In this document: positions 1 to 56,651 of the stretch, piece by piece
Position numbering within the stretch: the first letter of the stretch is position 1
Layout: every line of letters begins with the position of its first letter
NCBI RefSeq assembly: GCF_036711975.1
Contig: NC_091973.1
Coordinates: 4,774,001-4,838,000 of the forward strand
Length of the DNA stretch: 64,000 bases
Direction of reading: 5' to 3'
DNA from: Onthophagus taurus
Lineage: Eukaryota; Arthropoda; Insecta; Coleoptera; Scarabaeidae
The notes under the pieces: model-generated
Databases searched by the model: none
Seen by the model: only the letters and a program-made list of their open reading frames with translations
Told to the model about the DNA's origin: nothing
Position numbers and translations under genes: made by a program

Positions 1-3000
1 CACCATTAGATTCTTTGCCGGGTTTTAAATCGAGTACTTTCTCTGGGTTGTAAATAAATGGTGGGTAAAGTGGTGTTTCGATGAAATGCCCGTACCCTTG
101 TACGGCACGGAGTTGTTCTTCATCAACACAAACTCTCCCATTTACAATAACATATTCGGGAACGCCGTGACATTCCATGCCTTCGAATACATTGAAGTCG
201 ACTGCTTGATGGTGTGTTTTTGCAGATATCACCCTGGTTTTTGATGGGTTCCAAATGACGATATCTGCGTCAGATCCGATTGCGATACAACCTTTCCTCG
301 GGTATAAATTGAAAATTTTTGCCGCGTTGGAACTGGTTATTGCGACGAATCTGGTGGGGTCGATTAATCCCGAATGAACACCTTTCTCCCAAATCACAGA
401 CATTCTATCCTCAACTCCGTTAACTCCGTTCGGAATTTTCGAAAAATTTTCTTTCCCCATTTCTTTCTGGGACTTATTAAAAGTGCAATTATCGCTTGCA
501 GTTAATTGAAGAACATCCCTGTTTTAAAAATAACAAATACGTTAAATAATAACGAAATCGTTCAATTGTATAAAACCAGAGTATTGTTAAAATTTGTTAA
601 TGTGTTAAAAGGACTTACGATCTTAGATACCCGAGGAGTTGATTCGGGGTATCGTTGTCAGATCGTATCGGAGGCGTGGTAACGATCCTCGAATTATGGG
701 CATCACCACTAAGCGCAAAATTTGAAACGAAAACTGTCCCAAAAACAACTTGCCCAGACGATTGCTTTTCTTTAATCACCTCTGCAGTAGCACCGTTTGA
801 TACCGTATCGATGCATAAAGCCGTTGTCACCTGAATGTTTCAATGTTATTTAAGCCACAACAACAAAAAGCAACCCAAACCCACCACACAAAAAAAAAAA
901 CAGATTTTAGCAGTGTTAAAAAATTAAATTAAGCCAATTACACAGCAAATTTTTTTAAATTTTATTTCATACAAGAAAAAAACTATGATTTAAGAAAACA
1001 ACTTACTGCGAAAGAAAATTTAAGAGAAATTGTGGAGTGTTAGGGTCAGGTCTTAAAGGAGGACTTAAGACATGTCCCGCTGAGTGCCAGAAGCATTGGT
1101 GTCGATATTGAGAACCGTCACATGCTAGTGCACAAACCAAAGTTTCGCCAATTATATTCGTGCCCTTCTCGCGATATTGTTTTAATGTTGTTGCAGCCGA
1201 TTTACTCATTACGTGCACTATGTATAAAGGACTATTTACCTATAAGGATGTTGAAAAATCAAAAATAATAAGCAAACAAAATAGAACTAAGTAAACAGAT
1301 GAAAAGTTAATGATATAAGCGAATTTATTTATCAAAAATATATTCATTTTAGTAAATAAACGAAGTTTATATTGTATTTTAAAATATCTTTTAGCTTTTT
1401 CGCAGAGACAGTTTCCGCCGGAAATACGAACTCCGAAACGATTCCTTTTGCGGTATTAAAAAATCAGATTATGCGTACTCGATCGAAAAATCAACCAATA
1501 GGATTCGCTTTTACCCTTACATTTTATTATCAAAACTAGTTTTCCTACCACCGCTATCGAAAGGTGGCCACTTGTCTGCAAGCTACCGAATGGTGAACTG
1601 CTTTTTTAAAGTTGTCTTAAACGTAAATAAAAAAGTTAAATCATGTGGAATTTGGTCGAATTGGAAGAATATGAAGTCCCTTACCCGGATATTAAAATCG
1701 TAAGCAAAAAATTTCTTTCTTTCTCAAATCATTTCATTTTTTTTTTTATTTTAAAGTTTCCAGAACCGTATAATGTTAATAAATACAAAATCTCGCTGAA
1801 TGATACCGCCTATAAAATTGAACGAAAAACAAGTTACGCGATTTTCGAAATATTAGTACAACTGCAGCGACCATGCAAATTCTTTTTCCTTCGCCTTTAC
1901 CACATGTTAGCCGATTGTATCGATTTAAAATTGATGCCCGATGACGTCATGTTGATCCTCTTATTCCTCCGTGCGAAAACTCCTGATTTAAAAATTGATG
2001 TTAGAAGTAACACGACCGATAGTTGTGTTATTATTCTCGAAGATATAGAGAACCAAAAATCAATTGACACCCGCTTAAAACGACTGACCATTGCATAATA
2101 AGAATCACGAAAGTATGGAATATTTTCAATATTTCCGAGTAACTATCGTTTTATTTAAATTAACCTCAAATTTCGCGTTTTAAAGATATTTTGTAAAAAT
2201 TGTTTATTTCAAAGAGAAAAAAAATGATTGCCTTATAGTATTAGCTAGATAAATATTTGTATCCGTTTTTTGTAAAAATTAAAAAAAATTATTTTGTAAA
2301 CATCGTTTATTTACTTAACCCCCACCCCAAAAATAGAAATATTTTAATGAAAATAAACTAAAAATAAATTAATAGAAAAAAAAATACCTGTTGGGCAATT
2401 GTACAAGCTCTATTAACAGCTTCAGCTTCGACTTCTTCAGGTCTCGACATTTCGTGCCCTTCAGGACCGGTGATTCCCTTATTTAACAATCGTTCCACAT
2501 TTTTCTTAATAATATGGCCATTTTCTGCGTGGACCATGGGAACAGCACCGATATTTTTGCAATGTTCAAAGACGGAGTAAAGATCACCATCGTTCATCAT
2601 CATATCATAAGCCATAAACATTTTGAAGGAGTTGACTCCGTGCTGATGGCACAACGTGTTCATCTCTTCCTTGATGATATTATTCCAGCTGGTTACGATT
2701 ACGTGCAGGGCGTAATCACAACATACTTTGCTATCAGCTTTCTGACGATAATTTGCGTATGCATCCAAAAGGGATTCACCATTTTTTGGCATTACAAAAT
2801 CAACTAAAAAGTAAAAAAATAAAAATATAGAGAAAATATATCTCGATTATTGATGGAAATATGATAAAATGTTATTAAAGGAAAGTTGTTCCATACTTAA
2901 TATCCTATATGTGTTAGACACAATGATTAAATCGATTTTGAAGACGTTGGCCGCTCTAAGTCGAAGCCCAAAGTATTGTTTATGGTAGTTTGGGCGGCCG

Positions 3001-6000
3001 ACGTCTTCGAAGTCGGCCGAGATTATTTTTTATATCATAACAATGCTTGGGGCAGGCGTGGGGTGTCATAAATAATTTCTTATTTTAAAAATCTCGGCCG
3101 ACTTCGAAGACGTCGGCCGCCCTAAGTGCACTGTGTACGGGATTTGAGTATTGCAATATCAATACTGTGATATTGGTTGCATACTTGCAATGATGACGTC
3201 GGGTACGATAATTAATTAACACACTGTATTGTATGTGATACCCAAGTATAAGGAACAATACAATAAGTCTACCCTGCTTGAAATTTATGGAAGAAATAAT
3301 CTCGGCCGACTTCGAAGACGTCGGCCGCCCTAAGTATTGTTCATGGTACTTAGGGCGGCCGACGTCTTCGAAGTCGGCCGAGATTATTTTTTATATCATA
3401 ACAATGCTTGGGACAGTCGTGGGGTGCCATAAATAATTTCTTATTTTAAAAATCTCGGCCGACTTCGAAGACGTCGGCCGCCCTAAGTACACTGTGTACG
3501 GGATTTGAGTATTGCAATATCAATACTGTGATATTGGTTGCATACTTGCAATGATGACGTCGGGTACGATAATTAATTAACACACTGTATTGTAGGTGAT
3601 ACCCAAATATAAGGAACAATACAATAAGTCTACCCTGCTTGAAATTTATGGAAAAAATAATCTCGGCCGACTTCGAAGACGTCGGCCGACCCTAAGTATT
3701 GTTCATGGTACTTAGGGCGGCCGACGTCTTCGAAGTCGGCCCAGATTATTTTTTATATCATAACAATGCTTGGGGCGGGCGTGGGGTGCCATAAATAATT
3801 TCTTATTTTAAAAATCTCGGCCGACTTCGAAGACGTCGGCCGCCCTAAGTACAGTGTGTACGGGATTTGAGTATTGCAATACCAATACTGTGATATTGGT
3901 TGCATACTTGCAATGATGACGTCGGGTACGATAATTAATTAACACACTGTATTGTAGGTGATACCTGGTACGCCCAAGTATAACGAACAATACAATAAGT
4001 CTAGCCTGATTGAAATTTATGGAAGAAATAATCTCGGCCGACTTCGAAGACGTCGGCCGCCCTAAGTATTGTTCATGGTACTTAGGGCGGCCGACGTCTT
4101 CGAAGTCGGCCGAGATTATTTTTTATATCATAACAATGCTTGGGACAATCGTGGGGTGCCATAAATAATTTCTTATTTTAAAAATCTCGGCCGACTTCGA
4201 AGACGTCGGCCGCCCTAAGTACACTGTGTACGGGATTTGAGTATTGCAATATCAATACTGTGATATTGGTTGCATCCTTGCAATGATGACGTCGGGTATG
4301 ATAATTAATTAACACACTGTATTGTAGGTGATACCCAAATATAAGGAACAATACAATAAGTCTACCCTGCTTGAAATTTATGGAAGAAATAATCTCGGCC
4401 GACTTCGAAGACGTCGGCCGCCCTAAGTACCATGAACAATACTTAGGGCGGCCGACGTCTTCGAAGTCGGCAGAGATTATTTTTTATATCATAACAATGC
4501 TTGGGGCGGGCGTGGGGTATCATAAATAATTTCTTATTTTAAAAATCTCGGCCGACTTCGAAGACTTCGGCCGCCCTAAGTACAGTGTGTACGGGATTTG
4601 AGTATTGCAATACCAATACTGTGATATTGGTTGCATACTTGCAATGATGACGTCGGGTACGATAATTAATTAACACACTGTATTGTAATAAGTGTAGCCT
4701 GCTTGAAATTTATGGAAGAAATAATCTCGGCCGACTTCGAAGACGTCGGCCGCCCTAAGTACCATGAACAATACTTAGGGCGGCCGACGTCTTCGAAGTC
4801 GGCCGAGATTATTTTTTATATCATAACAATGCTTGGGACAATCGTGGGGTGCCATAAATAATTTCTTATTTTAAAAATCTCGGCCGACTTCGAAGACTTC
4901 GGCCGCCCTAAGTACAGTGTGTACGGGATTTGAGTATTGCAATACCAATACTGTGATATTGGTTGCATACTTGCAATGATGACGTCGGGTACGATAATTA
5001 ATTAACACACTGTATTGTAATAAGTGTAGCCTGCTTGAAATTTATGGAAGAAATAATCTCGGCCGACTTCGAAGACGTCGGCCGCCCTAAGTACCATGAA
5101 CAATACTTAGGGCGGCCGACGTCTTCGAAGTCGGCCGAGATTATTTTTTATATCATAACAATGCTTGGGACAATCGTGGGGTGCCATAAATAATTTCTTA
5201 TTTTAAAAATCTCGGCCGACTTCGAAGACGTCGGCCGCCCTAAGTACAGTGTGTACGGGATTTGAGTATTGCAATACCAATACTGTGATATCGGTTGCAT
5301 ACTTGCAATGATGACGTCGGGTACGATAATTAATTAACACTCTGTATTGTAGGTGATACTTGGGGCGGCCCAAGTATAACGAACAATACAATAAGTCTAG
5401 CCTGCTTGAAATTTATGGAAGAAATAATCTCGGCCGACTTCGAAGACGTCGGCCGCCCTAAGTATTGTTCCTGGTACTTGGAGCTGCCGAGATTATTTCT
5501 TATATATTAATTCTTATAAATTGGAATTAGTTAAGCACAAAAAAAAGTTTTTTTTAAGTTTCCAAGGTGATAACATTATTATATATAAAATTTTATTTTA
5601 TATAATATAATATTAATTGTTTTCATACTAATCATAGTGGTGCCTCCAGCAATAGCAGCTTTGGTCCCTTGATAAAAGTCGTCGACGGAGGTCGCCCCCA
5701 TAAATTCGAACTCGAAGTGGGTGTGAGGATCGATCCCTCCGGGCATTACGTACTTTCCCCTAGCGTCAATGACTCGAGTACCGCCCGGGATGATCAAATT
5801 CCTTCCTATTTGCTTTACACTCCCATCCTCAATGTAGATATCCTCTTCAAAAATTTCATCGTCATTCACAACTTGTCCATTTTTAATTAATAATCGATTT
5901 TGAGAACTCTAAAAAATATTAAAATCAAAAAAAAAAAAGAATTGAAACAAAAAAATCTTGATTGAAATTAATTTGAAAATGGGGGGAACGAATGTGACAC

Positions 6001-17125: not shown

Positions 17126-17875
17126 ATGTTTAGGGCGGCCGATGTCTTCGAAGTCGACCGAGATTATTTCTCTTACTCTGCTTGAAATTTATGGAAGAAT
17201 AATCTCGGCCGACTTCGAAGACGTCGGCCGCCCAATGTATTGCTCATGATACTTGGGGCGGCCGACGTCTTCGAAGTCGGCCGAGATTGTTTCTTTCATG
17301 AATTTCAAGCAGGGTAGACTTATTGTATTGTTCGTGATACTTGCGGCGGCCGACGTCTTCGAAGTCGACCGAGATTATTTCTCTTAGCCTGTTTGAAATT
17401 TATGGATGAAATAATCTCGGCCGACTTCGAAGACGTCGGCCGCCCCAAGCATCATGAACAATACTTTGGGCGGCCGACGTCTTTGAAGTCGACCAAGATT
17501 GTTTCTTCCATAAATTTCAACCAGGGTTGGGTTGGGTTGCGTAGAAACACGGTAGACTTATTGTATTGTTCGTGATACTTGGGGCGGCCGACGTCTTCGA
17601 AGTCGGCCGAGATTATTTCTCTTAGCCTGTTTGAAATATATGGAAGAAATAATCTTGGCCGACTTCGAAGATGTCGGCCGCCCCAAGTATTGTTCCTGGT
17701 ATAAGAAATAATCTCGGCCGACTTCGAAGACGTCGGCCGCCCCAAGCATCATGACTAATACTTTGAGCGGCCGACGTCTTCGAAGTCGGCCGAGATTGTT
17801 TCTTCCATAAACTTCAAGCAGGTTATGAGAAATAATCTTGGCCGACTTCGAAGACGTCATAAATTTCAAGCTGGG
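17125..17875. repeat. Family-A palindromic repeat cluster 3
   Basis: About eleven family-A cores alternating in orientation at 50-80 bp spacing, with loops containing AAGTATTGTTC/GAACAATACTT and flanks CCTGCTTGAAATTTATG. The short frames rich in [13 protein letters not shown] and its antisense seen here are translations of the palindrome, not genes. Confidence 0.92.
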
Positions 17876-26271: not shown

Positions 26272-26945
26272 ATGGAAGAAATAATCTCGGCCGAATTCAA
26301 ACATGTCGACCGCCTCAAGTATCATGAACTATTCTTAGAGCGGCCGATGTCTTTGAAATCGGCCGAGGTTATTTCTTATATCACAAAGAGCATTTGGGGC
26401 GGCCGACGTCTTCGAAGTCGGCCGAGGTTATTTCTTATATCACAAAGAGCATTTGGGGCGGCCGACGTCTTCGAAGTCGGCCGAGGTTATTTCTTAAGTC
26501 ACGAAAATAGTTGGGGAAGCCGAATAATCTCGGCCGACTTCGAAGACGTCGGCCGCCCCAAGTATTCTTCATGATATAAGAAATAAACTCGGCCGACTTC
26601 GAAGACGTCAGCCGCTCTAAGCTGACTCAAGATAACTTGGGGCGGCCGATGTCTTCGAAGTCGGCCGAGGTTATTTCTTATATCACGAAGAGCACTTGAG
26701 GCGGCCGACGTCTTCGAAGTCGGCCGAGGTTATTTCTTATGTCACGAAGATAGTTGGGGAAGCCGAATAATCTCGGCCGACTTCGAAGACGTCGGCCGCC
26801 CCAAGTATTCTTCATGATATAAGAAATAAACTCGAGGACGTCGGCCGCCCTAAGTATTGTGCATGGGGTGGCCGACATCTTCGAAGTCGGCCAAGATTAT
26901 TTCTTTTATCACGAACAACACTAAGGGCGGTGGGCGTCGAAGTCA
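26272..26945. repeat. Family-A palindromic repeat cluster 4
   Basis: About ten family-A cores in alternating orientation between Lap1 and pygopus. A 61-bp unit (cluster core plus GGTTATTTCTTATATCACAA and AGAGCATTTGGGGC) is directly duplicated at 26,380-26,500. Frames 26272-26574 and 26678-27030 are repeat translations. Confidence 0.92.
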
Positions 26946-39656: not shown

Positions 39657-42600
39657 ATGTGCGATAATGATGTATTTCAAGGTGATATTCATCAATTCAA
39701 TTTTGTAAGTCTAATTAAATCTATTTATTTCATGAACGTACTCTAAAATATGATGGTTGCGATTTGATAACATCATTTCTGTTTTTACTTTTCTAATTTT
39801 GTCAAACATTTAAACTCAAAAATCGTGTAAGTTTTTAATATTTTTTTACTAAAATGTTGTATATAACGATAAATTTAATAAATACATTCATTAAAACAAT
39901 ATGGCGGCGAATCTGTTTCAATTTGACATTTGCAATTTTTTTTAGATTGTTTAAGCGAATTATTGCTGTAATATTGAGTAAGTTTTAATATTTTTCGTCG
40001 TTATTTTGATTTTTTTAATGTTTTAAATGAATATACAACGTTTTATGGAATTAATTCCACTTTATTTCTCGTTTCACGAATTCTAACCTATAAAAATGTA
40101 TCCATCTGTCAAATTTTCTACTTTTTCTTGCAGGTTTTTTCCGAGGAAATTCAACAAACTGTAAGTTTATATTTTTTGTTATCTTTTAAATGATTTTAAA
40201 TCATTTCTTTTTGTTTAGGCGAGTGTTGATAACAAGATTGACGTGGATCGAAGTGTAAGTTAATTTTTTTTTAGTTAAATCTTTTTGGTGTTATATCTTT
40301 CTTTTTTTATAGTTAAGCGTTTTCCACGAAAGCTATCCACTACGTAACGTAAGTTTTCCTTAGTAGTTTATTCATATGCGTAGTTTTTTAATCGGTTAAG
40401 AGCTAGAATGTGGCCCCTCTAACCGTTAGAGGGAGCACATTCCGTTCTTTGGTTGTAAGATATAAAGTGTTTCTTATTTCTTGAAAATAAAAAATATATT
40501 TGAGTTATTATTTAATTAATTTGGTGGTATTTCCGCTATCTAGATCGACGAAGATGGTGCTTCCAGAGGTGTGCCTTTTTAACTTCTGAAAGACTATCTT
40601 TGTCAATCTGGATAGCATTTTCTATGTTATATTAGAGGCTATCTAGATTGACCAAGCTGGAATCTTATACATTTGGTTTTTCTAATATATGTTTTTCAAA
40701 TTTTGTTCCACTTATAATTATTTAGATTGACAGTAATGGTGATTTGCAGATACTATCCGTTTTTGTATCTGTGCCACTATTTCTGTTAATCTGGATGGCA
40801 TTTTTCTCTACCATTATGGTTTGGTTCTATTTTTGTTCAATTTTATTAGTTTAATGTTTGAGATAAATTCTCCATCAATTTAGACGATGTTCTAGATTGA
40901 TTGAGATAGCTATTTCCAGATATGTACTTTTGCAATATCTCGAAATTGGCATCTCTACTGATCTGAACAACATTCTTTTAGAATTTTTCGTGAATTTTCA
41001 GAAATTAAACAAACTAACAATCCAGACGGTGTTCTTGATTGATAGAGGTAGCTTTTTCCAGATATGTACATTTTGTTTATCTGGAACTTGGCATCTCTAT
41101 TGATCTGAATGCATGCTTACACTTCTTCCAGATAATAAACGCTATCCAGATGGACTAAGATTGTAACCTACAGATGTGTACATATTAATCAGTAGTTGCC
41201 GTCTTTGTCAATCTGGGCAGCATATTGCAGATTTGCACCTACCATATAGATGTTTCGTTCCAGATAACACTATCTAGAACGACAGAGAGGGTGATTTGCA
41301 GATGTATATTTCTCTATCTGTAATTGCCATCTTTGTCAATCTGGATAGTATATGTTATAGGTCCTAGATGCTATCTAGATCGGCAGAGATAGTGAGTTAC
41401 CGATGAGTTCTTTTCTATCTGTACTTGCTATCTTTGCCAATCTGGATAGTATATTCTACAGCATAAATATTTCCAGATACGAAACGCTACCTAGATTGAC
41501 AGAGATAGGGAGTTATCGATGAGTAGCTATCTATCTGTACTTCCCATCTTTGTCAATTTGGACAGTATCTTCCACATTTACATTAATTATTAAAAATTAA
41601 TATCTAACAAATCACTAAAAAAACAAAAATTTCAAAAATATCTTTATTTTTGAGGATTAGAATGCGTTTTATATCTCAAATTCGACCTCAAACAATCTAG
41701 TTTATGTTAAGATATAGAAATAATAGAGTTTGATTGTCAGAATTGTCAGAATTAACCACCTTTATGTATATGCAACCAAATTAGCTGTTCTGATGATTAT
41801 GTTGCCTGTATATACAAATTATTTTAAATACAAACATTATTTAAAATTGAAAATTTTTATTTTTTGTTGTAGGATTATCGGAATTGGATTGAAGATGTAA
41901 GTTTGTGCTTTAATTTATTCGAATTTTCCGTAACATTTCCTTTTTTTGTAATAGTTAGAAAAGCAGCTAATTTCTAATGTAAGTCTTGAATTTTTTAAAT
42001 TTATGTTTTTTTAATTATGCCCATTTTTAGACGGAAATTATGAGCGATAATCAACCCAATACCCCCGAAGAAATCGTAAGTAAAGGAACACTCAAAAATT
42101 AATATCTTAATTGTATTATTTTTTTTTAATTAGATGGATGATAAAAAATCCGAACCCGCAATGGAAGAAGTAAGTTCTTTATAATTCTTTTCGTCACTTA
42201 TTTACGAAAATTTCTTTACGTATTTAGGACCCAGCTTTAAATTTCGCGACGAAAATCGTCAGCTCAATCATGACTCAAAATAATTTATCGTCTGAATTTC
42301 AAATTGCCGGAATTTGCAAAGCCGTTGAAATTGCCAAGAAAGGATTTTACGAATTGAAAACCACCGAAACAATTCTACAAGACATTTACAACGCGGAAAT
42401 TGCAATTTTCCCTAAACCAAATTCTCAGGATGAGCCTTACAGTCCCAGTGATACCATAGAGACTATTGATCTTACAATATCCGACGATGAAGGTCCGTTA
42501 GATTTATCTCACACCATGCCAAAGTTGTCTTTGTTATCACCAGACACATCAAACACATCTCTCCCAGCCGAAGAAAATAATAAAACTGAAACGAACAATA

Positions 42601-45600
42601 TTAATAACCAAAACATATATGAAGACATAAGCGATTTTGAATCAAACCATGAAGAAGAAATCACCGAAAAAGTTGAAGATATAAAAAAAGACGATGAAAA
42701 TGAAAACACTAAGTTCGAAAGACGCATTGTTGATGTAACCCACTTCAAAAACTTTAATACTAGGTTGGTGAATCATTTGCTTGATCAAACTGTTTACGGA
42801 TCATACACTGAAGCAAGTGCAGCAATGCGTAGGTTGCAACAAATTACAAATACCCCTTCGAACGCAATAACAGTAATCCACGTTGGCACTAACTGCATGA
42901 ATTGTGATTATTATAATTATCAAAATCAAGCATACCACAACGACTATACCGATTATTCTAATCATTACAATCAAAATTATTCATTCCATGGTGAATATAA
43001 CGCAAACATGAATTATCCAGATACGATGAGAAATGATAGTAACGGACAATACTTTTATACAAATTATGATGAGCACACAAGAAGGGCGAATGAAGAGAAT
43101 TTACCTCAACCTGACTACAACAATCAATTTGATAACAACGAAGAGGAAGGAAATATCGAAAGTGTATCGAAATTTCCTGAAGACCACGGCGAAAAGGATT
43201 TTAAAATAGAGGAAGACAAAATTGAAGGTAAATATATTATTATTAAACATAAAAAATCATCCCTTTTTTATTTTTCTACCATTCTAGTTTATGATAAGAT
43301 ATAGAAATAATAAATCATAAATAAAAAATTGGGTTATACAACTTGTTAAGAAAAGTAACAATTTCAAAAAAATCATGTTTTCTTTATTTTTGGGAGTTAG
43401 AATGTGTTTTATGTTTCAAATTAAAGCTGAAACATTCTAGTTTATGATAAAGTATAGAAATATTAGGGTTTGATTATAAGAATTTTGAGAAATAAAATCA
43501 TAACTAAAAAATTAGGTTATATACCTTGTTAGGAAAAGTAAAAATTTCAAAAAAATCATAATTTCTTTATTTTTGGGAGTTAGAATGTGTTTTATGTCTC
43601 AAATTAAAGCTGAAATATTCTAGTTTATGATAAAGTATAGAAATATTATTGTTTGATTGTAAGAATTTTCAGAAATAAAATCATAACTAAAAAATTAGAT
43701 TATATAACTTGTTAAGAAAAGTAAAAGTTTCAAAAAAATCATCTTTTCTTTATTTTTGGGAGTTAGAATGTGTTTTATGTCTCAAATTAAAGCTGAAACA
43801 TTCTAGTTTATGATAAAGTATAAAAATATTAGGGTTTGATTGAAAGAATTTTCAGAAATAAAATTATAACTAAAAAATTAGGTTATATAACTTGTTAAGA
43901 AAAGTAAAAATTTCAAAAAAATCATCCTTTCTTTATTTTTGGGAGTTAGAATGTGTTTTATGTCTCAAATTAAAGCTGAAACATTCTAGTTTATGATAAA
44001 GTATAGAAATATTAGGGTTTGATTGTAAGAATTTTCAGAAATAAAATCATAACTAAAAAATTAGGTTATATAACTTGTTAAGAAAAGTAACAATTTCAAA
44101 GAAATCATAATTTCTTTATTTTTGGGAGTTAGAATGTGTTTTATGTCTCAAATTAAAACTGAAACATTCTAGTTTATGATAAAGTATAGAAATATTAGGG
44201 TTTGATTGAAAGAATTATCAGAAATCAAATCATAACTAAAAAATTAGGTTATATAACTTGTTAAGAAAAGTAACAATTTCAAAAAAATCATCCTTTCTTT
44301 ATTTTTGGGAGTTAGAATGTGTTTTATGTCTCAAATTAAAGCTGAAACATTCTAGTTTATGATAAAGTATAGAAATATTAGGGTTTGATTGTAAGAATTT
44401 TCAGAAATCAAATCATAATTAAAAAATTAGGTTATATAACTTGTTAAGAAAAGTAAAAGTTTCAAAAAAATCATACTTTCTTTATTTTTGGGAGTTAGAA
44501 TGTGTTTTATGTCTCAAATTAAAGCTGAAACATTCTAGTTTATGATAAAGTATAGAAATATTAGAGTTTGATTGTAAGAATTTTCAGAAATAAAATCATA
44601 AATAAAAAATTGGGTTATACAACTTGTTAAGAAAAGTAAAGATTTCAAAAAAATCATAATTTCTTTATTTTTGGGAGTTAGAATGTGTTTTATGTCTCAA
44701 ATTAAAGCTGAAACATTCTAGTTTATGATAAAGTATAGAAATATTAGGGTTTGATTGCAAAAATTTTCAGAAATAAAATCATAAGTAACAAATTAGGTTA
44801 TACAGGGTGTCACACAAAAAACGCCCCAAGCTGTAACTCTGTCATTTATATTCCGATTTTCATGACCGAGGCATCAAATGAAATGGTTTGATGAATACTA
44901 TGGTTCATGCTACAAATAAATTTTTTTCAAGGCCATCTTCAATTTTAAGCGATTATTAACTTTTGTTTTTCAAATTGCTCCATATATTTTTCTTCACGTC
45001 ATTAGATAGAGATTGTTTTTCTGAATCCACTGATGTGCAATACATCCACTTTGAATGTAATTTTAGCAGAAAAAAGACACCTGTATATACAGGTTGTCGC
45101 ACAAGAACGCCGTAAGCTGTAACTCTGTCATTTAACTTCCGATTTTTATGAACGAGGTATCAAATGAAATGGTTTGATGAATGCTATGATTCATACTACA
45201 AATAAACTTTTTCCAACGCCATCTTCGATTTCAAGCGATTATCAACTTTTGATTTTCAAATTGCTCGGTATGTTTTTCTTCACGTTATGGGATAGAAATT
45301 GTTTTCTGAGCCCATTGATGTGCAATACATTAACATTAATTGTAATTTTAGCAGAGAAAAACAATTAAAACATTTTCCGAACCTTGTCTTAGTCACTTCT
45401 GTAATACTGCAGTGTGCCATGGAAAAAAATAACACGCAAAACTGATAACACTCATTAAATGCTATTTCAATGCCCAAGCAGTTGTAAATGATACTTATAA
45501 GTTGGTTTTTCATTTATCCCATGGCACACTACAGTATAACACAAGTGACTTTAAGAGAATGTTCAGAAACTATTTTATTGTTTTTCTATGCTACAATTAC

Positions 45601-48600
45601 AATTAATGTTGATGTATTGTACATTAATGGATTCAGAAAAAAAAACTCTATCCAATAGCGTGAAGAAAAACATACCGAGTAATTTGAAAATCAATGTTGA
45701 TAATCGCTAGAAATTGAAGATGGCGTTGGAAAAAGTTTATTTGTAGCATGAATCATAGTATTCATCAAACCATTTCATTTGATAGCTAGGTCATGAAAAT
45801 TGGAAGGTAAATGACAGAGATACAGCTAGCGGCGTTGTTGTGTGGCAACCTGTATATACAGGTGTCTTTTCTCTACTAAAATTATATTCAAAATGGATGT
45901 ATTGTACATCAGTGGATTCAGAAAAACAATCTCTATCCAATGACGTGAAGAAAAATATATAGAGCAATTTGAAAAGCAAAAGTTAATAATCGCTTAAAAT
46001 TGAAGACGGCCTTGGAAAAAATTTATTTGTAGTATGAATCATAGTATTCATGAAACCATTTCATTTGATAACCCGCTCATGAAAATCGGAATGTAAATGA
46101 CAGAGTTACAGCTTGGGGCGTTTTTTGTGTGACACCCTGTATAACTTGTTAGGAAAAGTAAAAATTTCAAAAAAATCATCTTTTCTTTATTTTTGGGAGT
46201 TAGAATGTGTTTTATGTCTCAAATTAAAGCTGAAACATTCTAGTTTATGATAAAGTATAGAAATATAAGGGTTTGATTATAAGAATTTTGAGAAATCAAA
46301 TCATAACTAAAAAATTAGGTTATATAACTTGTTAAGAAAAGTAAAAGTTTCAAAAAAACCATCTTTTCTTTATTTTTGAGAGTTAGAATGTGTTTTATGT
46401 CTCAAATTAAAGCTGAAACATTCTAGTTTATGATAAAGTATAAAAATATTATGGTTTGATTGTAAGAATTTTGAGAAATAAAATCATATCTAAAAAATTA
46501 GGTTATATAACTTGTTAAGAAAAGTAACAATTTCAAAAAAATCATCTTTTCTTTATTTTTGAGAGTTAGAATGTGTTTTATGTCTCAAATTAAAGCTGAA
46601 ACATTCTAGTTTATGATAAAGTATAGAAATATTAGGGTTTGATTGAAAGAATTTTCAGAAATAAAATTATAACTAAAAAATTAGGTTATATAACTTGTTA
46701 AGAAAAGTAAAAATTTCAAAAAAATCATCTTTTCTTTATTTTTGAGAGTTAGAATGTGTTTTATGTCTCAAATTAAAGCTGAAACATTCTAGTTTATGAT
46801 AAAGTATAGAAATATTAGGGTTTGATTGAAAGAATTTTCAGAAATAAAATTATAACTAAAAAATTAGGTTATATAACTTGTTAAGAAAAGTAAAAATTTC
46901 AAAAAAATCATCTTTTCTTTATTTTTGGGAGTTAGAATGTGTTTTATGTCTCAAATTAAAGCTGAAACATTCTAGTTTATGATAAAGTATAGAAATATTA
47001 GGGTTTGATTATAAGAATTTTGAGAAATCAAATCATAACTAAAAAATTAGGTTATATAACTTGTTAAGAAAAGTAAAAATTTCAAAAAAATCATCTTTTC
47101 TTTATTTTTGGGAGTTAGAATGTGTTTTATGTCTCAAATTAAAGCTGAAACATTCTAATTTATGATAAAGTATAGAAATATTAGGGTTTGATTATAAGAA
47201 TTTTCAGAAATAAACACATAACTAAAAAATTAGGTTATATAACTTGTTAAGAAAAGTAACAATTTCAAAAAAATCATCCTTTCTTTATTTTTGGGAGTTA
47301 GAATGTGTTTTATGTCTCAAATTAAAGCTGAAACAGTCTAGTTTATGATAAAGTATAGAAATATTAGGGTTTGATTGTAAGAATTGTCAGAAATAAATTA
47401 ATAATTAAAAAAATAATCTTATATAACTTGTTAAGAAAAGTAAAAATTTAAAAAAAATCATCCTTTCTTTATTTTTGGGAGTTAGAATGTGTTTTATGTC
47501 TTAAATTAAAGCTGAAACATTCTAGTTTATGATAAACTATAAAAATATTAGGTTTTTATTGTAAAAATTTTCAGAAATAAAATCATAAATAAAACATTGC
47601 ATTATGCAGAAACTTATTATTTCTTGAAATTTATATGATATATGATATAATATATGTTTCTGTTTTAGAAGATGAATTGAAGGAACAGGAATTGCAAGAA
47701 GAAAGTCACGAAGAAGAAACTCCCAAATATCATATTTTATGCAATGATGAAACAAATGTAAATGAAAACAAAGATGAAAGTGGAAGCGAAAATCCTGGAG
47801 AAACTAGCAGTTTGAGAATGGAAGAGGATGATGAGATGGATGAAGAAGATGAAATGGAAGGCAAAGATGAGATGGATGAAGAAGATGAAATGGAAGGCAA
47901 AGATGAGATGGATGAAGAAGATGAGCTAGAAGAAAAAGATGAAATGGATGAAGAAGATGAGGTAGAAGAAAAGGATGTGATGGAAGAAGAAGATGGGTCA
48001 GAAAAAGAAGGTAAAATGGAAGGTGAAGAACATAATACCATCGAAATCGAAAATCCTCAAGATGAGATGAAAAGTCTAAGCCCATATAATTATACACTAG
48101 AAATCGAAGATAAATATAATGACGACTGGAATGATAACAAAGAAAGTGCAAAACAGGAACATCCAGAAAGTGATCGGTGGGGAGAACAAGGAGAACAAGG
48201 ATGGACTACTTGGGATATTGAAGAACCAAGCTTAGATGATAACGCAATCGAATGTGAAACCGAAAATCTTGGAGAAAGTACCAATTTACCAGTAGAAGAA
48301 AAAAATGAAGTGGATAATGATGAAAAAGAGCTAGAAGAAGAAAATCCGCAATCAAAAAATTATAGTATGGATGAAGAAAATACATATAATGAAGTCGAAG
48401 AAGCTACTAATGTTAATAACGATTGTAACGAAGAAAATCCATCATCTGAAGTGGATGAGAAACCTGAAAAAAACTACAATAATGCTGAAATATGTGATGA
48501 TCGTGGTCGTAGTCGAAGACGTAGTCGCGGACGTGGTCGAGGTAGAGGATTTGGACGTAAAAATAATAATACAAGCAACAATGATGAAATGAAAAGTGCT

Positions 48601-48849
48601 GAACCACCGCAGAAAAAGAAGAAATCAAAGAAACCACAGCAGATGACACGTCGTGAAATAACTGTAGCTGTTGAAGTCCCAGAAACAACCTATATAACAT
48701 TAGGGTTACGACCGCGTGGTATTCCGTTATGTTTTGTGCATTCGGGAGAGTTTAGAATTCCAATTTACGATTATGATGAACTTCAAAAAGTTGATAACTT
48801 AATTAATAATTATTTAAAACGTATCGCGATTGACATAAATAAACGTTAA
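39657..48849 (+). CDS. Unrecognised micro-exon gene, acidic/RG-rich nuclear-type protein
   Basis: Ten coding exons: 39657-39704, 40134-40160, 40219-40254, 40313-40348, 41873-41896, 41955-41978, 42031-42075, 42134-42169, 42228-43227, 47669-48849. Total 2,457 nt, 818 residues. Exons 2-8 are 27, 36, 36, 24, 24, 45 and 36 nt, all phase 0, each with a clear AG acceptor and GTAAGT donor. Exon 9 carries TIDLTISDDE, a SUMO-interaction motif, directly followed by the CtBP-type motif PLDLS (residues about 172-186), then an Asn/Tyr-rich stretch. Exon 10 has an acidic 12-residue repeat (DEMDEEDEMEGK, 47,821-48,000), an RSRRRSRGRGRGRG block, a KKKKSKK nuclear signal and a conserved-looking C-terminal 70 residues (VPETTYITLGLRPRG...). 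No family recognised; nuclear function is inferred. The start at 39657 is my choice; upstream exons may exist. Confidence 0.7.
40134..42169 (+). other. Run of seven symmetric micro-exons (24-45 nt)
   Basis: Each exon encodes 8-15 residues: VFSEEIQQT, ASVDNKIDVDRS, LSVFHESYPLRN, DYRNWIED, LEKQLISN, TEIMSDNQPNTPEEI and MDDKKSEPAMEE. All begin and end between codons, so any subset can be skipped without shifting the frame. Five of the intervening introns are only 58-134 nt; the one between exons 4 and 5 is 1.5 kb and repeat-filled. Confidence 0.7.
40540..41590. repeat. Tandem hairpin-forming repeats in micro-exon gene intron 4
   Basis: Six to eight diverged units of about 120-150 bp. Each has a CTATCTAGATTGACAGAGAT-like arm and its inverse CATCTTTGTCAATCTGGATAG about 60 bp later, the loop holding CAGATGTGTA or similar. 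Best-preserved units are at 41,270-41,580. A diverged copy of the 183-bp unit found in the later intron follows at about 41,635-41,760. Confidence 0.8.
44803..46139. mobile_element. Palindromic MITE inserted in the 183-bp array (TA target duplication)
   Basis: Left end CAGGGTGTCACACAAAAAAC, right end its inverse GTTTTTTGTGTGACACCCTG. Comparison with uninterrupted array units (AGGTTATATAACTTG) shows a duplicated TA, so the boundaries are exact. The arms (44803-45089 and 45853-46139) are near-complete inverted repeats of each other, about 287 bp each. No transposase; non-autonomous Tc1/mariner-like by target site. Confidence 0.92.
45090..45852. mobile_element. Second, related MITE nested at the centre of the first
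   Basis: Ends CAGGTTGTCGCACAAGAACG and CAACCTG (inverse), flanked by TATA on both sides. Removing it leaves GACACCTGTATACAGGTGTC, the perfectly palindromic centre of the outer element, so this copy inserted at the central TA. Terminal 100 bp resemble the outer element (CTGTAACTCTGTCATTTA in both), showing the same family. Frames 45174-45368 and 45280-45513 are not coding. Confidence 0.85.
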
Positions 48850-51000: not shown

Positions 51001-52755
51001 ATTATTTGAGATATTTAGGGCGAGATTATTTCTTCCATAAATTTCTCTCTTCCATAAATCTCGGCCGACTTCGAAGACGTCGGCCATCACAAGTATCATG
51101 AACAATACAATAAGTCTACCCTGCTGGAAGTTTTGGGAGAAATGATCTCGGCCGACTTCGAAGACGTCGGCCGCAATAAGTATTGTTCCTGATACTTGGG
51201 AAGAGAAGTATCATTTGAGATATTTAGGGCGGCCGACGTCTTCGAAGTCGGCCGAGATTATTTTTTCCATAAATTTCCAGCAGATAAGAGAAATAATCTC
51301 GGCCGACTTCGAATACGTCGGCCACCACAAGTATCATGAACAATACAATAAGTCTACCCTGCTGGAAGTTTTGGGAGAAATGATCTCGGCCGACTTCGAA
51401 GACGTCGGCCGCCCTAAGTATTGTTCCTAATACTCAAGGCGGCCGACATCTTCGAAGTCGGCCGAGATTATTTCTTCCATAAATTTCCAGCAGATAAGAG
51501 AAATAATCTCGGCCGACTTTGAAGACGTCGGCCGCCACAAGTATCATGAACAATACAATAAGTCCACCCTGCTGGAAGTTTTGGGAGAAATAATCTCGGC
51601 CGACTTCGAAGACGTCGGCCGCTCTAAGTATTATTCCTAATACTCAAGGCGGCCGACATCTTCGAAGTCGGCCGAGATTATTTCTTCCACAAATTTTAAG
51701 CAGGTTAAGAGAAATAATCTCGGCCGACTTCGAAGACATCGGCCGCCACAAGTATCATGAACAATACAATAAGTCTACTAAGTATTATTTGAGATATTTG
51801 GGGCGGCCGACATCTTCGAAGTCGGCCGAGATTATTTTTTCCATAAATTTCCAGCAGATAAGAGAAATAATCTCGGCCGACTTCGAAGACATCGGCCGCC
51901 CTAAGTATTGTTCCTGATACTCAAGGCGGCCGACATCTTCGAAGTCGGCCGAGATTATTTCTTCCATAAATTTCAAGCAGATTAAGAGAAATAATCTCGG
52001 CCGACTTCGAAGACGGCGGCCGCCACAAGTATCATGAACAATATAATAAGTCTACCCTGCTGGAAGTTTTGGGAGAAATGATCTCGGCCGACTTCGAAGA
52101 CGTCGGCCGCCCAAAGTATTGGTGGTCATGATGCTTGGGACGGCCGACGTCTTCGAAGTCGGCCGAGATTATTTCTTCCACAAATTTCAAGCAGGTTAAG
52201 AGAAATAATCTCGGCCGACTTCGAAGACGTCGGCCGACCTAAGTATTGTTCCTGATACTCAAGGCGGCCGACGTCTTCGAAGTCGGCCGAGATTATTTCT
52301 TCCACAAATTTCAAGCAGGTTAAGAGAAATAATCTCGGCCGACTTCGAAGACGTCGGCCGACCTAAGTATTGTTCCTGATACTCAAGGCGGCCGACGTCT
52401 TCGAAGTCGGCCGAGATTGTTTCTCCACAAATTTTAAGCAGGTTAAGAGAAATAATCTCGGCCGACTTCGAAGACGTCGGCCGCCACAAGTATCATGAAC
52501 AGTACAATAAGTCTACCTTTCTGGAAGTTTTGGGAAAAATAATCTCGGCCGACTTCGAAGACGTCGGCCGCCCTAAGTATTGTTCCTAATACTCAAGACG
52601 GCCGACATCTTCGAAGTCGGCCGACATTATTTCTTCCATAAATTTTAAGCAGGTTAAGAGAAATAATCTCGGCCGACTTCGAAGACGTCGGCCATCCTAA
52701 GTATTGTTCCTGATACTTGTGGCGGCCGACGTCTTCGAAGTCGGCCGAGACCTGT
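51000..52755. repeat. Family-A palindromic repeat cluster 6
   Basis: The densest cluster: about 25 cores in alternating orientation over 1.7 kb. Two paired forms recur: cores separated by AAGTATTGTTCCTGATACTCAAG-type loops (about 25-35 bp) and cores separated by TTTCTTCCACAAATTTCAAG-type spacers (about 40-45 bp). A block at 52,190-52,330 is repeated almost exactly at 52,310-52,450. The all-frame-open peptides [14 protein letters not shown] and [13 protein letters not shown] come from this motif. Confidence 0.95.
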
Positions 52756-54544
52756 CAAAGTAAGTTGGAGATCCTGAGATTAAAAAACCTCTCGATTAAT
52801 CTTTGCAAAAAGTGGTTCCAACAAGATTTTGGCAAAAAAAATGACGTGGGTAAAATTGTAAAAAGTTGTTGAACTTGGAGACTATGTCCTCAATAAATTA
52901 TTTCTATTAAACAAGTTTTCCAATAAACCAATGAGAATGAGTGAAAAATCATTTTTAAATGTATTATCAACGAAAATATTTGGATATCTGGTATTTAGAT
53001 AGTAAACACCGAAACATACGACGTAAAAAGGTTAAATTCAACGAATCAAGCATGTTTTGAAAATGTTGACGGTTGTTTTTCTTAACGATTATTTTTTTGT
53101 GATCAATTTACTGTAATGGTCAGCGAAATAAGAGGTGCTTTGTTTGTGCGATTTACGCGCAAATAAAATTTTATACTAAAAAAGTTCTTTTATTTCATTT
53201 TAACCTACGACAATTTTACTGTTATTTTTAATGAGTCATTTCGAATGAACTATTTTCAAGTGCCTTATGTTAGCAAAATTTCAAAATGCTTTCTTTGTTA
53301 AAAAAGATTCTGGAACATTGTGTGTATTTGTTAAAAGAAGTAATTTCTATTTAAATTTATCAATGACTCACTATTGCCAGGTGAAAGTATAGAGGCGGCC
53401 ACAAACATCCTCAACAAAAAAAGCGAGGAGATACTTTTTTTTTTTAATAACTTTTTTTTTTTAATACTATTTTTTATTAAAGACCTTTTTCGAGTTTACA
53501 TCACCTATTTAAACGGCGATGATTAAGGTGGACGATAACGGCCCGTTTCGTAATAACAAGCAAACAAGTCGTGATATCATGCTCTAAATAAACGGTTGTT
53601 TTTGTTAAAAAAGCTACCCACACAGTTTTGTTTAATTACTATGTTTCTTTATGGTATGTTCGCATATTTTTAAGGTGTCATAAAAATGAAATTTAACATA
53701 AATTTGAAAAGCTATAATTTGACCAATTGATTTCCTGTCGTAATATGGTGAAAAGCTATTAGGGTAGGTTTTTCTTGGAAGCAATTAGCTCGGAAAACCG
53801 CGTCCAGGCGTAGGGCTTAGGCGTTTTGCGCATAGCATTTTCCCGTGAAAATCAATAACGGCAAAGCGGGTTTCGTTTCCAACGTCCGTTCAGTTAGTAA
53901 CATCCCAGCCACAGTGTCGTCATGGTATAGTGAATCTTCCCCCTGAGCTGACTATGGCTACTGCCCGGCGGCCATCACATCTCCAATCCCAAGGAGACAT
54001 TCTGGGCAACCTACCGTTCCACCTTCCACCATTGCTCAACTTTGAATTTAATGACAACACCTTTTTTGCCGTTTATTGTTTTATCAAAAATTTTATCGGG
54101 TAAGACACTTATTTTCTATAAACAACATCCTTGTAAAAATAAAAACTATCAGAAACAGTTTTTTTAATGGAGAAGTGTGTGTTTGTTTACTTAAATTGAG
54201 AGACATTTTGTCTCGATTGACGTCGTGAGGTTCAAAGATCAGAAACATAACGTGAAATAGATAAATAAGCACTTCGGGCGTTTTTGCTGTTTGTTTCCAA
54301 GTGAAGGTCACGAACGCGGATTACGATTGCACAAACTCGATCTCTTATCGAATCATTTTCCAAAAGTCAAAAAAAATAATATTCATTAATACAATTAATT
54401 ATTTGAATAATAATTAAATATCATTAAAATTATTATTAACACATTATTTTATATGATCTTTAGCTAGATCTTTACTTGTTAATTTTTTACTTGAATTAAA
54501 AAGTTATATCCGCCATCTTTGAGCTCTCCAAAATCTTGTATTTC
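52756..54544. other. Intergenic region before the LINE
   Basis: Mostly AT-rich, no repeat array. A less AT-rich stretch at 53,770-54,020 contains a short open frame (see the candidate exon at 53,954). Confidence 0.4.
53954..54099 (+). other. Candidate orphan first exon
   Basis: An ATG (MATARRPSHLQ) opens a frame in a locally GC-richer stretch, ending in phase 2 at a GTAAGA donor. The phase matches exon 2 of the TSC22 gene at 62,217, so it could be an alternative distal first exon of that gene; this is one-in-three by chance. No protein similarity recognised. Low confidence. Confidence 0.2.
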
Positions 54545-54551
54545 TAGTACA

Positions 54552-56651
54552 AAAAACGTTTACAAAAAAAAAACCACCTTGGCTAACAGATAATGTGAAA
54601 CTTTTGATGGATTTAAGGGACAAAGCACTTCATAAATTTAAACACACAAACAGTTTACATGACTGGGACTATTACAAAATGTTGCCGAATTATACTACAG
54701 GTGCAATAAAAAGAGAGAAAAGAGTTTATGTGGAGTTCTCGGCAAGGAGTAAAAATAAAAAGCAATTATGGTCAAGTTTAAAGAAATGCGGTGTCCATTA
54801 TAACAAAAATAGAGAGATTCCTCTTTCACTTTCTGATGCTGATGAAATTAACAACTATTTTTGTTCAGTACAAAGTGACAGGTTGCCAGATGTAGACCTT
54901 TTAAATTTTTATAGTAACAATGTTAAAGATTCTGTGGATGTGTTTGAGTTTACTGCGGTGACGGAGGAGGAGGTAGGAGATGCCTTAAGTGCTATTTCTT
55001 CCAATGCTCAGGGAGCTGACCAGCTTTCTATATCTATGATAAACATATGTTCTCCCTTGATCATACATTTCATCAGACACATTTTTAATTTTTGTATAAC
55101 TGAACATGTTTTTCCATCTTGCTGGAAAGAGTCGATCATTTTACCCATCGCTAAAGCAAGTAATCCTAATGCGGTGTCGGATTTAAGACCGATTAGTATT
55201 TTGCCGGTGCTTTCGAAGGCATTTGAAAAAATTTTAGCAAAATAACTTAGACATTATCTGAATGCGTGTAATATTTTGCCTGAATTCCAATCTGGGTTTA
55301 GACCTCATCATGGCTGCTGTGGAGCGCTTTTGAATATCACTGACGACTTGTTGTCTGCGGTTGATCAGGGGAAGATGTCGGCGCTTGTTATGTTGGACTA
55401 CTCCAAGGCCTTTGATACTATTAATCATTCATTGTTGTTGAGTATTTTGCACTACATAGGCCTTGGGTGTGGTGCGATATCGTTGTTCGCTGACTATCTG
55501 GCGGGTAGGTCACAAAGTGTCATGATACATGGAAACAGATCTAGACCCACTGAAGTCGTATCCGGTGTACCTCAGGGCTCTGTGTTGGGTCCCATTTTGT
55601 ATACGGTGTATACATGCCGGTTATACGACTGTCTGCGTCATTGTAAGTATCATGCTTATGCTGATGACACTCAGATTTATTCCTCTTTTAATGAAAAAGA
55701 TCTTGCTGTTGCGCAAAGACATATTAACCAGGACCTGGATGCACTAGTTAGCCTTTCAGAAAGGCATAATTTGGTTATTAACCCCGATAAGAGTAAGTTA
55801 TTATTGTTCGGGAGTAAAGCGTGCAGAATAAAAAATAATATACAGATTTTTGTTAAAAATAGTCCATTGAATATTTCAAGTGAAGCAAAAAATTTGTTTT
55901 ACGCAGCATGTTAGTTCGATGATGCGGAGGTCGTACTGTGCTCTTAAATCTCTTTATGAACACCGTTTCCTACTTAATAAACGAATAAAAATATTGCTCT
56001 GTGAAACACTTGTTTTGTCTAATCTTAATTATTGTGATGTCGTTTACGGACCTTGTCGCAAGGGTCGTGACAAATACCGTATCCAGAAACTACAAAACTC
56101 TTGTATTAGATTCATTTCTGGTTTGAGAAATCGCGATCGAATATCTCATGTTTATGAGGATATCGGTTGGCTGCGTATGTCCATTCTGTTCCTCCTGAAT
56201 TCCAGCACCTTGGTGGTATCTCCTTCAAGAAGAAAATCAAAGGGCTCTTTCTGACCTGTAATAAATGACTAGGTCGCGCAATTGTTTTTTTTTTTTTTCT
56301 TTCTCCGAGACTCCATACACACTATGTTATGATTGCTGGTTTTTCGTAATGCTTGCACTGTAATAGTTGATTCGTGGCCCTTTCGTTTCTTTTCTTTTTT
56401 TTTTTTAAGTTTATTATTTTTAGCATTAGTTAGTAGTTAGTTAGTTTAGTTAGTTGATAGATTTTTTTTTATGGGGTGCCGGAAGAACAGATCAGTGTTC
56501 TTCACTGTTCTGAGGTATCTCCATTTGGCGCACATTTTTTTCTTTTTTCTTGTTGTTTGTTTGTTTTTTTTAATATGTATACAAATTTTCTTCTGTTATA
56601 TTATGGATATACTTATATTATATTATGCGTCAATAAATAAAAAATAAAAAA
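54552..56651 (+). mobile_element. 5'-truncated non-LTR retrotransposon (LINE), inactive
   Basis: Begins inside the second reading frame (PPWLTDNVKLLMDLRDKA), so the endonuclease is missing. The reverse transcriptase region follows: DLRPISILPVLSKAFEKI, FQSGFRPHHGC, LDYSKAFDTINH, GVPQGSVLGPILY and the catalytic YADD (HAYADDTQIY). A stop interrupts the frame at 55,243-55,245; a frameshift with apparent loss of some residues occurs near 55,900; a second shift lies near 56,185, after which the frame ends FKKKIKGLFLTCNK in another register. The downstream piece has LSNLNYCDVVYGP and RIQKLQNSCIRF, typical of CR1/Jockey-group elements. The tail is (AATAAA)-like. The 7-nt TAGTACA flanks both ends (54545-54551 and 56652-56658), a likely target-site duplication. 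Confidence 0.9.
54595..56275 (+). pseudogene. Broken LINE reverse-transcriptase ORF
   Basis: Three fragments of one former frame: 54595-55245, 55276-55914 and 55880-56254, separated by a premature stop and frameshifts. The catalytic YADD box is intact, but the endonuclease is absent, so the copy cannot be autonomous. Confidence 0.85.

Follow-up and report, generated by a model that had tools for sequence, protein, structure and literature searches.

Gene structure and surroundings

A 64,000-nucleotide window of the Onthophagus taurus genome (GCF_036711975.1, contig NC_091973.1, positions 4,774,001 to 4,838,000; the contig is called C8 below) raises the question of whether seven very short open segments in a row are exons of one coding gene, and of how exons of this size would be spliced. 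Positions without a contig name are those of the window. In the splice model built from the sequence, ten spliced exons on the + strand give a CDS of 2457 nt and a predicted protein of 818 amino acids. The first coding exon (39657..39704, 48 nt, encoding MCDNDVFQGDIHQFNF) opens with the first ATG downstream of an in-frame stop, and between it and exon 9 lie seven micro-exons, all in phase 0: exon 2 (40134..40160, 27 nt, VFSEEIQQT), exon 3 (40219..40254, 36 nt, ASVDNKIDVDRS), exon 4 (40313..40348, 36 nt, LSVFHESYPLRN), exon 5 (41873..41896, 24 nt, DYRNWIED), exon 6 (41955..41978, 24 nt, LEKQLISN), exon 7 (42031..42075, 45 nt, TEIMSDNQPNTPEEI, with an in-frame ATG inside), and exon 8 (42134..42169, 36 nt, MDDKKSEPAMEE, with ATG as its first codon). 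Exon 9 (42228..43227, 1000 nt) starts in phase 0, and exon 10 (47669..48849, 1181 nt) starts in phase 1 and ends with TAA. Residues 1–92 of the protein are encoded by the 48-nt coding exon and the seven micro-exons. The initial annotation had described seven consecutive phase-0 exons of 24–45 nt with good splice sites, and the lengths, phase, and coordinates were all confirmed.

The introns of the array, numbered 1 to 8, measure 429, 58, 58, 1524, 58, 52, 58, and 58 nt. Intron 4 (40349..41872) contains a repeat array of ~101-nt units at 41270-41454. Intron 9 (43228..47668, phase 1) consists mostly of a 183-bp satellite with ~23 copies (43303-47598), in which an inverted-repeat element of ~1.3 kb is nested at ~44800-46140, as judged by eye. 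Intron 1 carries a further candidate micro-exon (39946..39977, 32 nt) whose acceptor is rich in pyrimidines and whose donor reads GTAAGT; its in-frame TAA rules it out as a part of the open gene model. Judged from its sequence, this segment may be a decayed or cryptic micro-exon, a poison exon, or a product of chance, and it may point to unproductive splicing.

Neighboring open frames in the window match TPP II, an MSL2-type RING, leucine-rich repeats, and RNF220 in Pfam. GC-rich palindromic repeats of the GGCGGCCGACGTCTTCGAAGTCGGCC type occur in the AT-rich window at 2966-5351, 17134-17527, 26340-26834, and 51228-52483, and a reverse-transcriptase element split over several frames lies at 54523-56254, ~5.7 kb downstream of the gene.

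Splice signals and chance controls

All eight introns that follow exons 1–8 have the donor GTAAGT, a count that is partly ascertained, as good sites were the means by which the exons were found, and the donor of exon 9 is GTAAAT. The same donor is present in only one of 11 hand-picked introns of neighboring genes and paralogs (Fisher ~1e-4); a twelfth comparison intron (TPP2, 13055) was dropped because no frame stays open across it, and its inclusion gives 7e-5. Upstream of the array acceptors, 10–13 of 15 positions are pyrimidines, and two of the eight introns have a TGC at 30 nt or less from the 3' splice site. Between 39600 and 42300, GTAAGT occurs ten times on the + strand and never on the - strand. 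Phase 0 is open in 7/7 micro-exons, and the two other frames are both closed in three of them, one of the two is closed in another three, and neither is closed in exon 2. The GC content of the pooled micro-exons is 0.38 (0.25–0.44 singly), that of the short array introns is 0.12–0.24, and that of the two long ones is 0.23 and 0.32.

The array is well beyond chance. Under the rule applied, a micro-exon has a YAG acceptor with at least ten pyrimidines in the 15 upstream positions and no AG just upstream, a length of 18–60 nt that is a multiple of three, an open phase 0, and a GTAAGT donor. Seven candidates passed in the 2701 bases of the array and none in 465,299 strand bases of control, made up of the rest of the window on the + strand, the whole window on the - strand, and 170 kb of C8 on both strands. 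When the donor was relaxed to GTRAG, the counts were seven in the array versus six in the control (0.035 expected per 2.7 kb). With the frame condition removed, they were eight versus eight for GTAAGT and nine versus 48 for GTRAG, and one control stretch, the ~173-bp satellite beside the 2.14-Mb paralog on C8, then equals the nine in 2.7 kb. First-order Markov simulations (500 runs each) yielded at most one candidate with GTAAGT and two with GTRAG.

Within the array, exon–exon comparison found no similarity, as the best score of 19 lies below the maximum of 22 among 50 shuffles. Introns 2 and 3 resemble each other with a score reached by 4/1000 constrained shuffles, a weak hint in the sequence of a duplication that is unmatched by the exons.

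Searches for further copies

When both halves of the array were compared as DNA with the 291-Mb genome of the beetle, the best first-look candidates that were scored contained only self matches. An unspliced copy or retrocopy was likewise rejected, as the joined N-terminal protein matched only the gene itself, at three places, among the best first-look candidates scored. Spaced GTAAGT triplets were also sought across the genome, with the reversed pattern as a control, and were found at 81 places (48 + 33) versus 50 (13 + 37) for the control. Three of the 81 are the array itself, and most of the others are repeat-like by their first 80 bases. Two further places were read and rejected as second arrays, since C7:3176333 reads as a small gene with a secreted-looking start and C8:3447416 holds scattered candidates that form no in-frame chain. 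No second micro-exon array was thus found among the places read and the other non-repeat places, which were judged by 80 bases. A piece of exon 9 gave one weak non-self match in the genome, on C3 (E 4.5). The matched sequence is reminiscent, in our estimation, of BESS-like proteins, an identity for which Pfam gives no support.

Features of the predicted protein

The predicted protein is acidic, with a pI of 4.2 overall, and residues 740–818 are basic (pI 9.8). Helices are predicted where exon 9 begins, in a low-confidence model, and the exon 9 product continues with IDLTISDDE at residue 172 and an N/Y-rich tail. Exon 10 encodes acidic repeats, RGRGRGRG at 712, KKKK at 741, and the C-terminal domain. 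We take IDLTISDDE to be similar to a SUMO-interacting motif (SIM-like), RGRGRGRG to be an RG tract, and KKKK to resemble a nuclear localization signal. A similarity of the IDLTISDDE stretch to 18 ubiquitin residues (E 0.022 and 0.14) is taken as chance. AlphaFold models were poor (mean pLDDT 59 and 49), and the protein would be largely disordered, with a conserved basic C-terminal domain.

The N-terminus holds no hydrophobic stretch, as the best 12-residue Kyte–Doolittle mean in residues 1–60 is 0.31; the GRAVY of residues 1–92 is -0.92. The suggestion that the protein lacks a signal peptide is supported by this hydropathy profile, a simpler measure than a dedicated predictor. The acidic composition and the basic tracts near the C-terminal end agree equally with the earlier impression of a C-terminal part that looks nuclear rather than secreted, and the location of the protein is probably nuclear. 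The SIM-like, RG, and KKKK motifs would fit a role as a nuclear adaptor.

No Pfam family matched at its curated cut-off in a search that covered all exons. The nearest were Transformer (E 0.011, 16.3 bits against a cut-off of 26.7) and DUF5320 (E 0.045). The below-cut-off match to fruit fly Transformer sits on a basic, RS/RG-rich stretch of exon 10 (48504-48704), and it probably reflects shared RS/RG composition.

A small gene family on one contig

The initial annotation recognized no family for the protein and proposed a profile search of its C-terminal part. The statement holds at the level of Pfam, where no family reached the cut-off, but six relatives of the C-terminal ~55 residues came to light in the genome search, each of them found on C8, the contig of the gene itself, so the gene is not an orphan. 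The part aligned with these relatives, by genome search and alignment, is encoded at 48625..48846 on the + strand. With the C-terminal 81 residues as query, five other places were recovered, all on C8, with E-values of 2.4e-5 to 0.098; the best (E 2.4e-5) is 41% identical over 72 residues, and the last two are weak (E 0.03 and 0.10). In turn, the member at 2.14 Mb as query recovered seven places, again all on C8 and five of them in 8.27–8.38 Mb, with the present gene last (E 0.033). An alignment of the seven family sequences has 11 invariant columns out of 77, and a lysine-rich run precedes the C-terminal domain in several members. The dN/dS values of two paralog pairs were 0.45 (395 codons) and 0.76 (345 codons), both as point estimates. 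On these similarities, the gene appears to be a divergent member of a small seven-copy family found on one chromosome-scale contig, through a link that is weak from some sides.

The members at 2.14 Mb and 8.38 Mb also have a phase-1 intron ahead of the last large exon, and both have phase-1 symmetric exons. In the 170 kb of sequence scanned around the other six members, both strands contained zero phase-0 open GTAAGT candidates; the paralogs on C8 thus share the C-terminal domain, whereas the phase-0 GTAAGT micro-exon array was found only in this gene. A helix motif (ICKAFE-like) upstream was considered as a further element in common with the paralogs; its profile score of 3.0, exceeded by at least 12 of 1000 shuffles, was not significant, and Pfam gives no support.

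Several other observations were made around the family members. In a single long open frame, the paralog at C8:8327044-8329695 repeats a unit of ~35 residues (EGDIKFESKKPPQEPQPSTSK...) many times in tandem. The inverted paralogs at C8:8295828-8297018 (+) and 8304411-8305598 (-) encode proteins that are 87% identical, and the pair is a recent inverted duplication. A family-like fragment at C8:8294531-8295090 contains the motif CTPSTSATPKQ and ends without the C-terminal domain. Directly downstream of the 2.14-Mb paralog lies a satellite with a spacing of ~173 bp (C8:2136121-2138398), nine places of which show a splice-like 28–29-nt pattern.

Comparison with known micro-exon systems

A likeness to schistosome micro-exon genes (MEGs) or aphid bicycle genes, suggested earlier, did not survive comparison of intron size, exon phase, and secretion, and the possession of many tiny exons is what all of them have in common. 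MEGs (PMC10526429) contain a number of short exons whose lengths are for the most part divisible by three, as are 7/7 here; however, their introns are long (0.1–5 kb), whereas six of the eight array introns measure 52–58 nt, and they encode proteins of at most 189 residues with a signal peptide, in contrast to 818 residues without a hydrophobic start. In bicycle genes (PMC9168663), the internal exons are unusually small, nearly all in one phase, and the sequence is fast-evolving, traits that the present gene shares. That phase is phase 2, whereas exons 2–9 start here in phase 0 and exon 10 in phase 1, and bicycle genes have ~17 exons and encode putative effectors, unlike the ten exons and the acidic, nuclear-type protein predicted here. 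A loose C-Y-C pattern of our own (gaps up to 6), used as a stand-in for the CYC motifs of bicycle genes, is absent from the protein.

Closer in intron size are the C. elegans micro-exons of the tcer-1 type, which lie beside ~58-nt introns and are PRP-40-independent, although that study (PMC8378409) concerns two isolated exons rather than seven arrayed in one gene. The eMIC-dependent micro-exons of insects also have short flanking introns, but have weak 3' and 5' splice sites (PMC8797185), in contrast to the uniform GTAAGT donors and pyrimidine-rich acceptors of the array. A UGC close to the 3' splice site is a further mark of the eMIC-dependent exons, and a TGC stands there in two of the eight array introns. 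Among open-access titles and abstract openings, an insect array of this kind was not described, which does not imply its absence from print. Taken from the sequence, the array appears real and unusual: the gene combines micro-exons with introns of minimal size and a protein of nuclear type, and its exons would be joined in RNA.

How the array may be spliced

The reading we favor, and consider likely, is that the locus is a real coding gene of the C8 family with a micro-exon N-terminus that is joined constitutively by intron definition. Each micro-exon would be recognized by spliceosome pairing across the short introns, and all of them would be joined constitutively into one N-terminus of 92 residues. 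The product would be acidic, largely disordered, and probably nuclear, and would carry the conserved basic domain at its C-terminus. Among the 11 comparison introns, hand-picked from neighbors and paralogs with the frame kept open, eight measure 49–58 nt (the others 65, 255, and 337), so the short introns of the array would be ordinary minimal introns. In C. elegans, the two micro-exons that do not depend on PRP-40 lie beside very short introns, down to 49 nt, and a swapped-in upstream intron of 58 nt releases another micro-exon from its need for PRP-40 (PMC8378409). In flies, eMIC exons are regulated and have short introns, strong upstream donors, and weak 3' and 5' splice sites (PMC8797185). 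Short introns alone are therefore no proof of constitutive use, because these regulated exons share them; it is the combination of mostly minimal introns with strong sites, unlike those of the fly eMIC exons, that favors constitutive joining here. Exons 2, 4, and 5 would be less well defined because introns 1 and 4 are long.

Rival readings were weighed against the same evidence. As the initial annotation pointed out, any skipping of the seven exons keeps the frame, and skipping in varied sets could in arithmetic generate up to 128 N-termini, with the long introns beside exons 2, 4, and 5 as places where it might occur and the ATGs of exons 7 and 8 as possible starts of shorter forms. The preservation of frame stands, but the production of many variants is not favored and seems rather unlikely to us, given the GTAAGT at all array donors, the pyrimidine-rich acceptors, the minimal size of most introns, the presence of a TGC near the 3' site in two of the eight introns, and the weak 3' and 5' sites of regulated fly micro-exons (PMC8797185). 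An extension of this idea, which we hold to be unlikely, is that the micro-exons encode cassette peptides of short-linear-motif size whose variable joining would give a nuclear adaptor with many binding faces; the array may then have grown by exon–intron duplication, proposed because introns 2 and 3 keep a trace of similarity.

The array might also act as a regulated block, used in one tissue and replaced elsewhere by a short form starting at the in-frame ATG within exon 7 or the one that opens exon 8, and the stop-bearing 32-nt candidate in intron 1 could turn the long form off. We regard this as quite improbable, as the ATG at 39657 is the first one after an in-frame stop. Lastly, AG and GT words are abundant in AT-rich DNA and one candidate within the array bears a stop, so the segments could be splice-like words that are never spliced, or parts of a pseudogene; the control counts and simulations, the 818 codons open over ten exons, and the GC contrast between exons and introns make this extremely improbable.

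Implications

Gene predictors may miss an N-terminus built of micro-exons. If the exons are joined in RNA, the locus would represent a micro-exon gene that does not encode a secreted effector, has minimal introns, and keeps one common phase, and would offer a natural test of how insect splicing handles exons too small for exon definition. It would equally serve to test how a gene can gain protein length through many tiny exons when its relatives in the family seem to be without them.
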